From Epsilonproteobacteria bacterium tcs-49 (lineage in GTDB: Bacteria; Campylobacterota; Campylobacteria; Campylobacterales; Sulfurovaceae), in contig LLYS01000002.1 of the NCBI GenBank assembly GCA_002049495.1, forward strand, positions 62,001 through 126,000: a DNA stretch of 64,000 bases, written 5' to 3'. The stretch's first letter is position 1, and every line of letters starts with the position of its first letter. The position numbers were made by a program, and so were the translations under genes. The notes under the pieces were generated by a model that was not told where the DNA came from, searched no databases, and saw only the letters and a program-made list of their open reading frames with translations. Below, one piece after another: positions 26,882 through 35,546 of the stretch.

Positions 26882-26906
26882 AACCTGAAAAACAAAAGGA
26901 GATACT

Positions 26907-28499
26907 ATTTTATCAACGGTTAATATTACGCAACGTTACGGAAAACGTGTACTGTTTGACAAGATCAATATTACGCTCGATCCGGGCAAGCGCTACGGAC
27001 TTATCGGTGCCAACGGTGCGGGGAAGAGTACCTTTTTAAAGATTTTGTCGGGTCAGCTTGAACCCAGCGAGGGCGAAGTACAGCTCCAGCCCGGGGTGAA
27101 GCTCGGCGTCCTGGGACAAAACCAGTTTGAATTTGAGCAAAACACCCTTATCGAAACGGTTATGATGGGCAACAAGCGCTTTTACGACGCTTACAGCGAA
27201 AAGCAAAAGCTCTATATGGAGGGCGACTTTGAAAGCGATGAGGTCAACAACCGCTTGGCGGAGTTGGAGATGGTGTGCGCCGAAGAGGATCCCACCTACG
27301 AAGCGGAGGTCAAGATCGAAAAGCTGCTCAGTGCTCTGGGCTTTGACGTCGGTGTCCACAACAACCTCATGAGTTCGCTTACCGGCGGCGACAAGTTTAA
27401 GGTTCTGCTGGCACAGGTGCTTTTCCCAAAACCCGATATTTTGCTGCTGGACGAGCCCACGAACAACCTGGATATGGACACCATCGCGTGGCTGGAGGAG
27501 GAGCTTAAGCGCCACGAGGGGACACTGGTGGTGATTTCGCACGATAGACACTTCCTCAACAACGTCGTTACGCATATTCTGGATCTGGATTTTCAAAATA
27601 TCCGTGAATTCACGGGCAATTACGACGATTGGTATATCGCCGCGACGGTGATCCAGCGGCAAAAGGAGGCGGATAAAGCCAAAGCCGAAGACAAGAAAAA
27701 GGATCTGCAGCGCTTTATCGAACGCTTCAGCGCCAACGCAAGCAAAGCCAAACAGGCGACCAGCCGCCAAAAGCAGCTTGAGCAGCTGGACGTGGGAGAG
27801 ATCGAAACCTCCAGCCGCCGTGACCCGAGCATCGTGTTTAAACCCAACCGCGAGATCGGTTCGGAGGTGCTGGATCTGGAGGGTGTTTCCAAAAGCTACG
27901 GCGAACATACCGTGTTTGAAAATCTCGATCTCAAGATCAAACCCGGCGACAAGATCGCGCTGATCGGGACCAACGGGGTGGGTAAAACCACGCTGCTTGA
28001 GCTGATGATGGAAAATCTGCAGCCAGACGGCGGTACGGTAAAGTGGGGACAGACGGTACATCCAAGCTACTTTCCTCAAAATACCACCGATATCATCACC
28101 GGCGATATGAAGCTGTATGATTGGCTGCAAAGCATCGACGCCAAGTGGCATATCGACGAGATCCGCAAATGCCTGGGACGGATGCTGTTCAGCGGCGAAG
28201 AGCAGGAGAAAAGCGTCAAAGATATCAGCGGGGGCGAAAAGCATAGGATGATGCTTTCGAAGATGATGATGGAAAGCGCGAACTTCCTCATGCTGGACGA
28301 GCCGGACAACCACCTGGACCTTGAAGCGATCATCGCCCTGGGCGAAGCGCTGTATAACTATCCGGGCAACGTGATCTGCGTTTCCCACGACCGGGAGCTT
28401 ATCGACGCCTTTGCCAACCGTATCATCGATATCAAACCCGACGGGCAGATTATCGATTTTGAGGGCAACTACGAAGAGTACGTGGCGTCAAAATCCTAG
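26907..28499 (+). CDS. ABC-F family ATPase (YbiT-like) with ATT start codon
   Basis: Soluble tandem ABC ATPase of the ABC-F type, 530 residues, acting on the ribosome. Both nucleotide domains are complete: Walker A GANGAGKST and GTNGVGKTT, signatures SLTGGDKFK and DISGGEKHR, Walker B ILLLDEPTNNLD and LMLDEPDNHLD. The inter-domain linker contains ANASKAKQATSRQKQL, as in YbiT. The reading frame before the first Walker A has no ATG, GTG or TTG: a stop at 26886-26888 limits it, and AAGGAG (26896-26901) stands five bases before ATT 26907, followed by LSTVNIT-like residues matching the start of YbiT. ATT is thus the apparent start; a single-base error for ATG is the alternative. Starting at TTG 27045 would delete Walker A. 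Confidence 0.9.
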   Translation: MLSTVNITQRYGKRVLFDKINITLDPGKRYGLIGANGAGKSTFLKILSGQLEPSEGEVQLQPGVKLGVLGQNQFEFEQNTLIETVMMGNKRFYDAYSEKQKLYMEGDFESDEVNNRLAELEMVCAEEDPTYEAEVKIEKLLSALGFDVGVHNNLMSSLTGGDKFKVLLAQVLFPKPDILLLDEPTNNLDMDTIAWLEEELKRHEGTLVVISHDRHFLNNVVTHILDLDFQNIREFTGNYDDWYIAATVIQRQKEADKAKAEDKKKDLQRFIERFSANASKAKQATSRQKQLEQLDVGEIETSSRRDPSIVFKPNREIGSEVLDLEGVSKSYGEHTVFENLDLKIKPGDKIALIGTNGVGKTTLLELMMENLQPDGGTVKWGQTVHPSYFPQNTTDIITGDMKLYDWLQSIDAKWHIDEIRKCLGRMLFSGEEQEKSVKDISGGEKHRMMLSKMMMESANFLMLDEPDNHLDLEAIIALGEALYNYPGNVICVSHDRELIDAFANRIIDIKPDGQIIDFEGNYEEYVASKS

Positions 28500-29935: not shown

Positions 29936-32401
29936 ATGCTACTGCGCTTTTATACCCGTTTTCTTTTCCGCTATCCCAAATGGCTGCTGGCTATGCTGGT
30001 GCTGTTTTTGGCTTTTGCGGGATACTACTCCACCAAGCTTGAGATCGACGCTTCCTCCAATACGCTGCTGCTGGAGGGAGATAAAGATTTGGCGTTTACT
30101 AGGCAGATAAGTAAGCGCTACGGCGGTTCAAACTTCCTGCTGGTTGCTTTTACCCCCAAGCAAAGCTTGCTGGATACGAAAACGCTGCAAACGATTAAAT
30201 CCCTCAGCGACGAGCTGCGCAAACTTCCCGAAGTTACAAGTATCACCTCCATCCGAACCGTTCCGCTGCTGTTGAGTTCAGGCGGAGGGCTGAGCGGCTT
30301 GAGTGAGGGGATCGATACCCTGGCGACGGTGAAAAACCCCGATAAAGAGAAGATCAAAGAGGAGTTTTTGACCAATCCCCTCTATAAAGACGGTTTGGTC
30401 AGCAAAGATTTTCAAACCACGGCGATCATGGTGCACCTCAAAGATGATCCCAGACACCGCGAACTGGTGGAGCGCAGAAACGGGTTGCAGGAGCGGTTGG
30501 AAAACGGAGCGAACGGCGAAGTGAGCGAGGAGCTTGCGAAGGTAGAACAGGAGCTAAAGATCCACCGGGATAAGCGGCGCGAAATCGACAGCCGCAACAT
30601 CGAGCAGGTACGGGCGATTCTAAGCGCTTACGAAGATGAGGGGCAGCTGTTTCTCGGGGGCGTGAATATGATCGCCAATGATATCATCGGCTTTATCAAA
30701 GATGATCTGCGCATCTACGGCTCCATTCTGGCGCTGCTTTTAGTGACGATCCTGTGGCTCGTGTTCAGGCAGTGGCAGTGGGTGGCGATGCCCGTGGTCA
30801 TCTGTATCGCCGCAGTGATCGCCGCAACGGGGAGTCTGGGCTTTTTCGGCTGGGAAGTGACGGTGATCTCATCAAATTTCATCTCCTTGCAGCTGATCAT
30901 CACCATCTCCCTGGTGCTGCACCTGATCGTACGCTACCGCGAACTGCAGCGCCGCTATCCAGGAGCCGATAAACATAAACTGATCCTCGTAGCGACCCTT
31001 TCAAAGATCAAACCCTCCTTTTTCGCCATCATCACCACCGTCGCGGGCTTTGGGTCGCTGATCTTTTCCAAGATCCAACCCGTGATCGGTTTGGGGCTGA
31101 TGATGAGCGTGGCGATTACGCTCTCACTGATTCTGGTATTTCTACTCTTTCCCGCGCTGTTGGTGCTGGGGCGCAAAATCCCCCCTCCCCATGCCGCGGC
31201 GGCAAAACGTGAAGTGATGACCAAAGTCGCCGCCCAGGCGCAAAAACGAAAGCATATGATCTTTGCCGTGAGCATCGCAGCCCTTGTGTTCAGCGCCAGC
31301 GGGGCGAGCCGATTGATCGTGGAGAACAGTTTTATCGGGTATTTCAAAGAAAGCACCGAAATCTACCAAGGGATGGAGATCATCGACGAGAAGCTCGGCG
31401 GTACCACGCCGCTGGACGTGATCGTGCGCTTCAAAGAGGCGCCAAAGCCCGAGCCAAAACCCGCGCAGGATGACTTCTTTGCCAGCTTTGAATCGGAGTT
31501 TGCCCGGGAAAGCCAGAGCGAAGAGTACTGGTTTACGCAGCAGCGGATGAAAGCGATCGAAAAGATCCACGACTACTTGACAAGCATAGACGCCCTTGGC
31601 GACGTGCAGTCGCTGGGTACACTTTTGAAGGTGGGGCGAAAGCTCAACGGCGGAAAGGATCTGGACAGTTTTCAGTTGGCTTTGATGTATAAGGAGTTGC
31701 CCAAAGAGTATAAAAAAACGATTCTCGATCCCTATATCAGTATCGAACACAACGAGGTGCGCTTTGCGATCCGGGTGATCGATTCCACGGAGGGGCTGCG
31801 TAGAAACGCGCTGCTAAAGCGCATCAAAACCGACCTGGAGCAGATGGAGCTTGAAGCGGTGCAAAGCGTGCGGCTTTCCAATTTGATGGTGCTGTATAAC
31901 AATATGCTCCAGTCGCTGTTTCATTCTCAGATTTTGACGCTGGGGTTGGTGGCGCTGGTGCTGTTTACCATGTTTATGGTGCTGTTTCGCTCCTTCACCC
32001 TTTCCTTCATCGCCCTTTCGATCAACATCGTACCCATCACCGTGGTGTTTGGGATCATGGGCTGGGCGGGGATACCGCTGGATATCATGACCATCACCAT
32101 CGCCGCGATCAGTATCGGCATCGGCGTGGATGATACGATCCACTATATCGACCGCTACCGCATCGAGTACAAAAAAGACGGCGACTATCTGGGGGCGATG
32201 TATCGCTCCCACGAAAGTGTGGGCTACGCCATGTACTATACGACGTTGACGGTGATGGTGGGCTTTTCGATCCTGCTGTTTTCGAATTTCATCCCCACCA
32301 TCTACTTCGGGTTGCTGACCGTGCTGGTGATGGCGCTGCTGCTAAGCTCGGCACTGCTGCTGCTGCCGCGGATGCTACTGAGTATGCGCCCTGCGCTATG
32401 A
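29936..32401 (+). CDS. RND/MMPL superfamily exporter
   Basis: 821 residues. A membrane helix (about 13-30) is followed by a periplasmic domain (about 31-255, with a charged coiled coil near 165-220), a block of five helices (about 260-410), a second periplasmic domain (about 450-650) and five more helices (about 660-815). This is the RND plan, with the GxxD-containing helix IGIGVDDTIHYIDRY. The closest recognised type is the MMPL/HpnN group, which moves hydrophobic lipids. Being in one operon with mlaA and mlaC suggests a role in outer-membrane lipid traffic; the direction of transport is unknown. Confidence 0.9.
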   Translation: MLLRFYTRFLFRYPKWLLAMLVLFLAFAGYYSTKLEIDASSNTLLLEGDKDLAFTRQISKRYGGSNFLLVAFTPKQSLLDTKTLQTIKSLSDELRKLPEVTSITSIRTVPLLLSSGGGLSGLSEGIDTLATVKNPDKEKIKEEFLTNPLYKDGLVSKDFQTTAIMVHLKDDPRHRELVERRNGLQERLENGANGEVSEELAKVEQELKIHRDKRREIDSRNIEQVRAILSAYEDEGQLFLGGVNMIANDIIGFIKDDLRIYGSILALLLVTILWLVFRQWQWVAMPVVICIAAVIAATGSLGFFGWEVTVISSNFISLQLIITISLVLHLIVRYRELQRRYPGADKHKLILVATLSKIKPSFFAIITTVAGFGSLIFSKIQPVIGLGLMMSVAITLSLILVFLLFPALLVLGRKIPPPHAAAAKREVMTKVAAQAQKRKHMIFAVSIAALVFSASGASRLIVENSFIGYFKESTEIYQGMEIIDEKLGGTTPLDVIVRFKEAPKPEPKPAQDDFFASFESEFARESQSEEYWFTQQRMKAIEKIHDYLTSIDALGDVQSLGTLLKVGRKLNGGKDLDSFQLALMYKELPKEYKKTILDPYISIEHNEVRFAIRVIDSTEGLRRNALLKRIKTDLEQMELEAVQSVRLSNLMVLYNNMLQSLFHSQILTLGLVALVLFTMFMVLFRSFTLSFIALSINIVPITVVFGIMGWAGIPLDIMTITIAAISIGIGVDDTIHYIDRYRIEYKKDGDYLGAMYRSHESVGYAMYYTTLTVMVGFSILLFSNFIPTIYFGLLTVLVMALLLSSALLLLPRMLLSMRPAL

Positions 32402-33530
32402 CCCGCTGCGGTAGGCGACAACGCGGTTGCGCCCCTGTTCTTTGGCTTCATACAGGGCTTTGTCGGCTTGCGCTATAAGCTCTTGCAAAGAGGGGCAAGA
32501 AGCGGTGTCATACTGGACGGTACCTATGCTGACACTCAGGCGAATAGGGGTGTCTTTGTAAAAAAAGATATGTTCACTGATAGCGGTTCTAAGCTTTTCA
32601 AGGAGATTTAAACCCTCCCTGAGCGTAGCGCCGTTGAGGGAGAGTAAAAACTCCTCTCCCCCGTAGCGGATGACCGAATCACTTTTTCGCAGATGTGATT
32701 GCAGGATTGAAGCGGTTTGTTCAAGCACCATATCACCCGCAAGGTGACCGTGCGTATCGTTTATCTTTTTAAAATAATCCAGATCGATCATGGCTATGCA
32801 AAAGGGCATATCGTATCCATCGGCGTAGTATTTGAGCTTTTGCAGAATTTTCTTCAGGCGCTTGCGGTTGGGAAGCCCGGTAAGCGAATCGGTTTCACTG
32901 GCGTGGATCAAATCCTTTTGGGTTACGAGCTGGTTGAGTTCGAAGTTGATATGCTGGGAGTGGCGCACCAAAAAGATATAATCCAGCAGCAGGGAGTGGT
33001 AATCCTCCTTTGCAAGCGCATCATACACGCTATGGGCGGTGCTGTGGATCTTGTTCGATCCAGAGCAGGTGTTCATTGACAAACTCTTCGGCGATGGAAT
33101 CTTTGAGCAGTTTTTGGATAACCTGCGTATCATACTCCAGCATCTGCTGCAGATAACCCAATGCGGACCCTTCGATAGCGTGGTCAAAGAACTGCTGGAT
33201 CTTCTCGACCAGCCAGAGGGTATCCTCTTGAACGGTCACCTGGGAGTAGATACTTTTAAGCAGGGTTTGAAAACTTTTGATATAGCGGCTGTAGGGCAGT
33301 CCCATCTCATAATGCATCTTTCCCAGCTTGGCAAAGCGCTGTAAAATCTCCTCTTTGCTTTCCTGCAGTGCCGCAGTAAAGTTGTCACACTGCTTTTGCT
33401 GCAACTCTTTCATATCCACTTTTTCAAAAAAGCGAAGCAGGTAGGGGTCATTTCGCAACTCCCGGTAAAAAAGTTCAAATGCACTGCTGATAAGATTGTG
33501 CAGCCGTTTTGTGCTTCCCGTCACTTCCAT
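32396..33530 (-). pseudogene. Globin-sensor-like diguanylate cyclase, broken by a single-base frameshift
   Basis: Two overlapping reading frames (33530-33030 and from about 33030 to 32396) are the halves of one protein. The first half (166 residues) contains KLGKMHYEMGLPYSRYIKSF, resembling the proximal-histidine helix of globin-coupled sensors (H73). The second half is a complete GGDEF domain with DSLTGLPNRKRLKKI, the I-site RKSD and the active site GGEEF. Total length is 1135 bases, i.e. 378 codons plus one base. Removing one G from the GGG at 33034-33036 (CCC on the coding strand) joins the halves across QH-RH-SVYDALAKEDYHS. ATG 33530 has AAAGGAG before it. It is either a natural null mutation or a sequence error; a +1 recoding event at CCA-TAG is less likely. 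Confidence 0.85.
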
Positions 33531-33566
33531 GCAACTCCTTTATAGCAACAGTATAGCATAGTGACA

Positions 33567-33596
33567 TTGAAGTGTGGTACAATTAAGAAATATAAT
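33567..33596 (+). promoter_or_regulatory. Candidate sigma-70 promoter for the PAS-GGDEF-EAL gene
   Basis: TTGAAG (33567-33572) and TATAAT (33591-33596) with an 18-base spacer, 28 bases before the start codon at 33624. It lies in the 93-base divergent region between the two c-di-GMP genes. Confidence 0.55.
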
Positions 33597-33623
33597 CTAC
33601 GGCAGCTTTGGGCAGGGGAGAAG

Positions 33624-35546
33624 ATGGACAAAATATCAAGCAGTAATAAAAGTGCCATATTGATTGCGGCAAGCTATTGCGTATTTGGTGTTTTGTGGAT
33701 CTTTTTATCTGATTATGCGGTAGAAACGCTCGCTCAGAGTACACACCAGCTCACAGTGCTGCAAACCTACAAGGGGTGGTTTTTTATCTTTGTCACCACC
33801 ATGCTGCTCTATTTGCTGAGTAAACGGCTTTTTCAAAGCGCCGATGATGAGGTGCAAGCCCACCGCAAAACGACCCAAAAGCTGCGGCGCAATACGGCAC
33901 TGCTTGATAGGATTATTAGCGCTTCCCCCGATGCGGTGTATATCAAAGATATGCAGGGACGTTATCTGCTGTTTAACGGCGGTGCGGAGCGGGTCACGGG
34001 TAAAAAGCGCTCCGAGGTGATCGGAAAAACGGACAATGAGGTCTTCAGCCCGGAAAATGCGCAAAAGATCCGGGCCAGGGATCGCGGGATTTTGAAAGAG
34101 GGCAAAGTGGTCAATGAGGAGGAGGAACTCTTCATCGAGGGCAAGAGGCGGTTTTTTTGGTTGACCAAAGGGCCCGTATACGATGAGCAGGGCGAACCCT
34201 TTGGACTCTTTGGGATCGCGAGGGAGATGACGCGGCAAAAGATGTATGAACAGACACTTGCCAAGGCGAAAGAGCGCTACTACAACCTGGCGCACTACGA
34301 CACGTTGACAAAGTTGCCAAACCGGCTGGATGTGCTTGAAGTGCTGCGAAAAAAGTGCGATGCGGGAGATCCCTTTGCTCTGTTTTTACTGGATCTGGAT
34401 GCTTTTAAAGTGATCAACGACTCCTACGGGCACCGCTTTGGGGATCTGTTGCTGGTACAGGTAGGGGATCTGCTGCAGCAGGTGTTCGGTACCGAAGAAA
34501 ACGTTTTTCGCATGGGCGGGGATGAGTTTGCGATGATCGTCAACAGCAGTGACCGGGTGCTGCTGCAAGAGCTCATCGACCGCTTTACGCAGCGGATGGA
34601 TCAGCCCGTGCAGATCGAAGAGGTGGATGTGTATATCACCGCAAGTATCGGGGTCGCGCTGTATGACGAGGATGCCAAGGACGTGGACGGGTTGCTGCAA
34701 AACAGCGACGCGGCGCTGAGCAACGCCAAAAAGATAGGGAAAAATACCTTCAGTTTTTACCGCTACAGTTTCACCGAAAGCGCGCAGCAGCACGCGCAAA
34801 TCGCCAGCCGTTTGAAAATGGCTTTGCAAAACGGCGAGTTGCAACTGCACTACCAGGGGCAGTACGATACGCAAACACGGCAGCCTGTGGGAGCGGAAGC
34901 TTTGATGCGCTGGAACCGGGAGGGAGAGACGGTCTCTCCGGGGGTGTTCATCCCCGTTGCCGAGGAGAGCGGTCTGATCCATGAATTGGGAATTTTCACG
35001 CTGTACGAAGGGTTTAGCACGGCGGCGACGCTGGCGCAGCGGGGGCGCTTGAGAGGCAAGATCGCCCTGAACGTTTCCGCGCGGCAGCTGGGGCACAGGG
35101 AGTTTGTCAAAACCATGGAGCGTATCGCGGACAATACGAAGTGCGACCCTGCCCATATCGAGCTTGAAATTACGGAAACCTCCATTTTAAATAATCCAAG
35201 GGTCACGACGGAGATACTGCACAGATTGCGCCAAAACGGCTACAGTATAGCGATGGATGATTTCGGGACGGGGTACTCCTCCCTCTCCTATCTCAAGGAT
35301 CTGCCCATCGACAAGCTCAAGATCGATCGCTCCTTTATCCAAAACATCCACACCGAACCCAAAAACCAGTCAATCGTTCGGACCATGCTCTATATGGCAA
35401 AGGAGCTTGGGATCGTGACCCTGGCAGAAGGGGTGGAGACCAAAGAGGAGTTGGAGTTTTTACGCGAGCAGGGCGTTGATATGATCCAGGGCTTTTACTA
35501 CCACAGACCCGCTCCCAAGGAGGCGTTGGAGCGCCTGTTTGCCTAA
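33624..35546 (+). CDS. PAS-GGDEF-EAL c-di-GMP synthase/phosphodiesterase
   Basis: 640 residues from ATG 33624 (GGGGAG before it). Two N-terminal membrane helices (about 11-29 and 51-66) enclose a short periplasmic loop. A PAS domain (about 88-205, SPDAVYIKDMQGRYLLFN) is followed by a GGDEF domain (about 212-370, active site GGDEF, no clear I-site) and an EAL domain (about 380-638). The EAL part keeps its catalytic set: EALMRW, NVSARQ, EITET, DDFGTGYSS, DKLKIDRSF, EGVET and QGFYY. Both making and breaking c-di-GMP are possible. It faces the frameshifted cyclase and ends overlapping the flavoprotein gene by four bases. Confidence 0.95.
   Translation: MDKISSSNKSAILIAASYCVFGVLWIFLSDYAVETLAQSTHQLTVLQTYKGWFFIFVTTMLLYLLSKRLFQSADDEVQAHRKTTQKLRRNTALLDRIISASPDAVYIKDMQGRYLLFNGGAERVTGKKRSEVIGKTDNEVFSPENAQKIRARDRGILKEGKVVNEEEELFIEGKRRFFWLTKGPVYDEQGEPFGLFGIAREMTRQKMYEQTLAKAKERYYNLAHYDTLTKLPNRLDVLEVLRKKCDAGDPFALFLLDLDAFKVINDSYGHRFGDLLLVQVGDLLQQVFGTEENVFRMGGDEFAMIVNSSDRVLLQELIDRFTQRMDQPVQIEEVDVYITASIGVALYDEDAKDVDGLLQNSDAALSNAKKIGKNTFSFYRYSFTESAQQHAQIASRLKMALQNGELQLHYQGQYDTQTRQPVGAEALMRWNREGETVSPGVFIPVAEESGLIHELGIFTLYEGFSTAATLAQRGRLRGKIALNVSARQLGHREFVKTMERIADNTKCDPAHIELEITETSILNNPRVTTEILHRLRQNGYSIAMDDFGTGYSSLSYLKDLPIDKLKIDRSFIQNIHTEPKNQSIVRTMLYMAKELGIVTLAEGVETKEELEFLREQGVDMIQGFYYHRPAPKEALERLFA

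Follow-up and report, generated by a model that had tools for sequence, protein, structure and literature searches.

Our analysis indicates that the gene on the minus strand at 32396-33530 of the window (the whole 64,000-nt stretch of DNA from Epsilonproteobacteria bacterium tcs-49 that was analysed) encodes the two halves of a globin-coupled diguanylate cyclase and is most probably, at roughly 0.72, a recent deletion pseudogene. The proposed deletion would have removed about 149-152 nt, that is the core of the middle domain, from the latter half of the first helix up to the beginning of the last, and, its length not being a multiple of three, would have left the two ends out of frame. By homology, the gene is shown to lack this domain core and to change frame relative to 24 aligned relatives. 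We infer that the loss is present in the living genome rather than in the assembly, and take it to be recent because neither half has lost a strongly conserved position. The broken gene is real and its kind is ordinary, with an assembly artefact as the main rival explanation. The cause of the break, which a sequence-only reading had placed in one extra base, is thus corrected to a domain loss beyond repair by a one-base edit; related enzymes need their middle domain.

A cyclase gene in two frames

The gene is 1135 nt long, in other words 3n+1, and lies between two neighbours on the opposite strand:

33624-35546, plus strand: PAS-GGDEF-EAL protein, intact, divergent neighbour
33535-33540, minus strand: AAGGAG, Shine-Dalgarno-like, 4 nt ahead of the ATG at 33530
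33030-33530, minus strand: first frame, globin half, 166 aa, ATG start, stop TAG at 33030-33032
32396-33187, minus strand: second frame as an open reading frame, 263 aa, stop TAG at 32396-32398
32423-32896, minus strand: GGDEF domain (GGEEF, with RxxD upstream), Pfam PF00990, E 1.9e-41
29936-32401, plus strand: MMPL-family transporter, convergent neighbour, 6-nt overlap with the end of the cyclase gene

The two frames overlap out of register and, as had been proposed from the sequence, carry the sensor and GGDEF halves of one gene, with matches to Protoglobin and GGDEF, respectively; the total length of one base over a multiple of three was also read correctly. The AAGGAG and the ATG at 33530 would together make a good start signal for the 166-residue globin frame. 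A promoter and terminator scan of 32300-33700 found nothing above chance. The GC content of the cyclase gene is lower than that of its neighbours (0.47-0.49 versus 0.53), and it is possible that the gene arrived horizontally.

Elsewhere in the window, an N-terminal truncation of the ABC-F ATPase gene (26882-28499, plus strand) at 27045 was considered and rejected, as its frame is open upstream without a usual start codon. It continues beyond the first ATG/GTG/TTG (27045), in the upstream direction, as far as 'ILSTVNITQRYGKR', which follows an AAGGAG, and the start codon is probably ATT.

The sensor and output halves

The first half matches the Pfam Protoglobin family (PF11563) with an E-value of 1.8e-7 and 31.8 bits, above the cut-off of 25, which bears out its proposed similarity to globin sensors. 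An AlphaFold2 model of this half, built with 16 relatives (mean pLDDT 84.2), predicts a globin fold, and its best structural matches in VIA-align are to globin domains, chiefly those of globin-coupled sensors, with Z scores of 13-14, for example 8h17 (Z 14.3, rmsd 2.4, 129 aligned) and DosC 4zvb (Z 14.0, rmsd 2.2, 120 aligned). Foldseek with the same model gave no row at an E-value of 0.001 or better. A profile search with alignment A3 returned truncated haemoglobins, aligned over a short segment, together with some chance matches and no DosC row, and tblastn against plasmids with the first half as query gave no match. The proximal-histidine helix that had been noticed is also present: alignment to DosC identifies His73 (codon 33312-33314, minus strand) as the proximal haem ligand, pairing it, in a weak sequence match (E 0.07), with the histidine in 'aevHarigip', which we take to be H98. 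H98 is named as the proximal histidine of DosC in the accessible part of PMC5549716. A histidine occupies the equivalent column in 13 of the 24 aligned relatives described below, and all five of the columns conserved in at least 90% of these relatives are kept in the first half.

The identification of the second half as a diguanylate cyclase stands as well. The features of a GGDEF diguanylate cyclase, the GG[DE]EF active-site motif and the conserved core, are present, and the second frame keeps 29 of 29 columns conserved in at least 90% of the same relatives. These kept positions (5/5 and 29/29) fit a recent loss, and they would fit an assembly artefact or retained function as well.

Intact relatives and their middle domain

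Relatives were sought in four overlapping genome sets, with a match in 3 of 60 related genomes (source genome included), 10 of 397 genomes of the class, 22 of 200 genomes of the family of one match and 11 of 397 genomes of the phylum. There are 26 distinct relatives, 25 with a single open frame of 416-454 aa and one (L023) itself truncated; duplicate loci (L018-L021, L027, L029-L031, L042 and L043) were not counted. Our counts refer to 24 aligned relatives (L007-L017, L022, L024-L026, L028 and L032-L039), which form few groups, and are not counts of independent events. The two left out are the truncated L023 and L040, the latter because the motif filter required GG[DE][DE]F and L040 has GGDEI; by eye it is of haem type, without zinc ligands. 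The truncated copy, in genome G458, is about 94% identical to the L018 region over 1.9 kb, with the match breaking off where the globin domain ends, and is either a deletion or a chimeric contig.

No close orthologue of the gene was found in the genome sets searched, and its ancestral middle domain is therefore deduced from distant relatives; the nearest globin halves are only 34% identical to its first half. Among 36 genomes of the same family one has a match, of haem type, and the source genome itself carries a full-length and intact paralogue of haem type (L009). With the intact relative L010 as query, tblastn against plasmids matched 3653 records; the best 10 full-length places listed are 25.7% identical and lie on E. 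coli plasmids, and one of these 10 (L056) is without zinc ligands.

The intact relatives have a helical middle domain between the globin and the GGDEF domain. In the predicted structure of L010 (pLDDT 89.1), residues 144-422, which comprise the middle and GGDEF domains, match the CZB-regulated cyclase DgcZ (4h54; Z 21.8, rmsd 4.3, 257 aligned). Comparison of the L010 middle domain with PDB sequences gave nothing useful, and the link to DgcZ is based on NCBIfam, structure and alignment. All four zinc ligands of DgcZ (H22, C52, H79 and H83) and its Trp (W25) have equivalents in 16 of the 24 aligned relatives. At an E-value of up to 1, the Pfam CZB family matches 16 of the 24 (in L010 with 21.6 bits, below the curated cut-off of 29.4), and PF21118, the DosC middle domain, which Pfam describes as CZB-like, matches six; Protoglobin matches only 12. 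The N-terminal alignment of the group with zinc ligands only is supported by hhalign (98.5%, for 8 of its 11 members). H22, C52, H83 and the Trp of DgcZ are named in the accessible part of PMC8262984.

The proposed deletion junction

Alignment with these relatives places the frame switch between 33059 and 33050, and the following features surround it:

33069-33071, minus strand: His154 codon, equivalent of DgcZ zinc ligand His22, first frame
33050-33059, minus strand: candidate deletion junction, 10 nt from the Trp157 codon to the Ile-His pair in the last zinc-ligand motif
33044-33046, minus strand: His codon, equivalent of DgcZ zinc ligand His83, second frame
32396-33052, minus strand: second frame from the resumption of homology, with the last middle-domain helix, the stalk and the GGDEF domain

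Homology extends through the first half as far as Trp157 (codon 33060-33062) and resumes in the second half with codon 33052-33050. The 10 nt that separate this Trp from the subsequent Ile-His compare with 53-54 residues (159-162 nt) in the relatives of zinc type and 45-48 residues in those of haem type, so that the domain that links sensor to output is missing here; with the change of frame, sensor and GGDEF domain are not on one polypeptide. Relative to the zinc-type enzymes the net coding loss is about 149-152 nt, which is 2 modulo 3 and therefore looks like one base too many. The equivalents of H22 and W25 of DgcZ are kept in the first frame and that of H83 in the second, and those of C52 and H79 are absent, leaving the site of three His and one Cys with two of its four ligands, in separate frames. 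Likewise, the NCBIfam DgcZ-like family NF007380 (PRK09894) is matched over profile positions 18-285 by the intact L010 and only over 80-287 by the second half of the broken gene, and Pfam CZB (PF13682) gave no row for either half at an E-value of up to 1.

Haem and zinc ligands across the relatives

Of the 24 aligned relatives, five have both the proximal histidine and the zinc ligands, eight the proximal histidine only, 11 the zinc ligands only and none lacks both. From this distribution we tentatively suggest, at somewhat less than even odds, that what is broken here belongs to a globin-coupled cyclase subfamily with two inputs, in which the middle domain both binds zinc and relays the haem signal, that the DosC-type middle domain arose from a zinc sensor, and that lineages dropped the haem or the zinc ligands, never both. 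The intact ancestor of the gene most likely had the haem-ligating histidine together with the zinc ligands. Alternate ligand loss of this kind would offer a way to test where the DosC middle domain came from. A figure legend of PMC8262984 includes globin in its list of domains that occur in CZB proteins, and, judged by titles and the openings of abstracts, the literature search found no globin-CZB-GGDEF enzyme with both ligand sets.

Alternative explanations

The explanation that competes best with a deletion in the living genome is that this genome is intact and that about 150 nt were dropped in the draft assembly. The draft consists of 17 contigs, neither half shows decay and there is no other clear broken gene in the rest of the window, all of which would suit such an artefact. 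On the other hand, the locus is far from the ends of its 239-kb contig, and it is unusual for an assembly to drop 150 nt cleanly from unique sequence. The missing piece has, moreover, left no trace elsewhere in the genome: a genome-wide CZB search gave 10 matches, none at the cyclase locus and all in open frames of 263-815 aa. We consider an artefact unlikely, at about one chance in six.

It is considerably less probable that the gene now makes two working proteins, a free 166-aa globin and a separately started stalk-GGDEF protein freed of haem and zinc control. Every strongly conserved position is kept in both frames, and the GTG at 33028, separated by a single base from the first frame's TAG, offers a restart that is possible in principle. 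This GTG, however, has no ribosome-binding site: in the second frame, from 33187 to 32968, no ATG, GTG or TTG was found to follow a Shine-Dalgarno sequence, and the sole strong AAGGAGG sits 11 nt ahead of a CTG. The known enzymes also argue against it: in the accessible part of PMC5549716, the diguanylate cyclase (DGC) domain of EcGReg (DosC) alone is described as monomeric and, for that reason, without detectable activity, and the globin of BpeGReg alone as giving no response.

The sequence-only reading had located the lesion in an extra G at 33034-33036, whose removal was to restore an enzyme of 377 residues. The total length of 3n+1 fits an insertion or base-calling error there, but that one base can close a frame does not show that one base was in error. 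The stretch 33052-33034 is already in the second frame, where it encodes KIHSTA in alignment with the relatives, and for the second half the best-ranked alignments begin at query residues 3-5 (about 33055-33047), upstream of the proposed base, which thus sits at least 14 nt into the second frame and downstream of the true break. The repaired product would also still be without the middle domain, with the window's 10 nt standing against 45-54 residues in the 24 aligned relatives, and would be shorter than any of the 25 relatives with open frames (416-454 aa). An error of this kind is therefore very improbable. Programmed frameshifting, for which the overlap of the two frames might speak, can practically be dismissed, since the joined product would still be without the middle domain, all 25 full-length relatives are encoded in one open frame and no slippery sequence is seen by eye at the junction.

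Consequences for c-di-GMP signalling

As a deletion pseudogene, the gene would most likely yield a 166-residue globin and no regulated cyclase. A working cyclase is not expected because c-di-GMP synthesis is beyond the globin on its own, and the GGDEF domain of DosC, when it lacks its middle domain, is reported to be an inactive monomer. The genome holds 61 GGDEF matches in 2.22 Mb, in addition to the 10 CZB matches, and the loss of one input is therefore unlikely to be severe. The source genome has a dense c-di-GMP and chemotaxis repertoire. One of the 61 GGDEF matches is another short remnant, in a frame of 68 aa (L052 1513-1716; G000:C13:77012-77182), and the genome also contains a protein that is CheW-like by eye with a CZB-like stretch (L053 532-1320, G000:C1; 26.4 bits, below the cut-off).

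Comparison with known systems

The gene shares with DosC/YddV (EcGReg) and BpeGReg the arrangement of a globin-coupled-sensor globin first and a GGDEF domain last; it differs from them in that the core of its middle domain is deleted and its frame broken. The middle domain of DosC is the one that Pfam names CZB-like (PF21118), and the nearest intact relatives of the gene have zinc ligands in theirs, whereas neither 'zinc' nor 'CZB' appears as a word in the accessible parts of PMC5549716 and PMC7033309. According to the same part of PMC5549716, the middle domain is essential in EcGReg and BpeGReg, and in that of PMC7033309 the globin of PccGCS exerted no O2-dependent effect when the middle-domain link was missing. 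DgcZ (YdeH), the CZB-regulated diguanylate cyclase of E. coli, has a CZB followed by a GGDEF domain as in the relatives, but no globin, and the broken gene keeps two of its four zinc ligands, in different frames. L010-L013 and L022, from genomes of the same order, have a globin with the proximal histidine, and are about 41% identical to its second half and 28-34% to its first; unlike it, they are intact and their zinc site is complete. Finally, a Protoglobin-GGDEF-EAL-CZB protein of Acidithiobacillus, described in the accessible part of PMC6416229, also unites a globin and a CZB domain in a single c-di-GMP protein, with a different domain order and an EAL domain.
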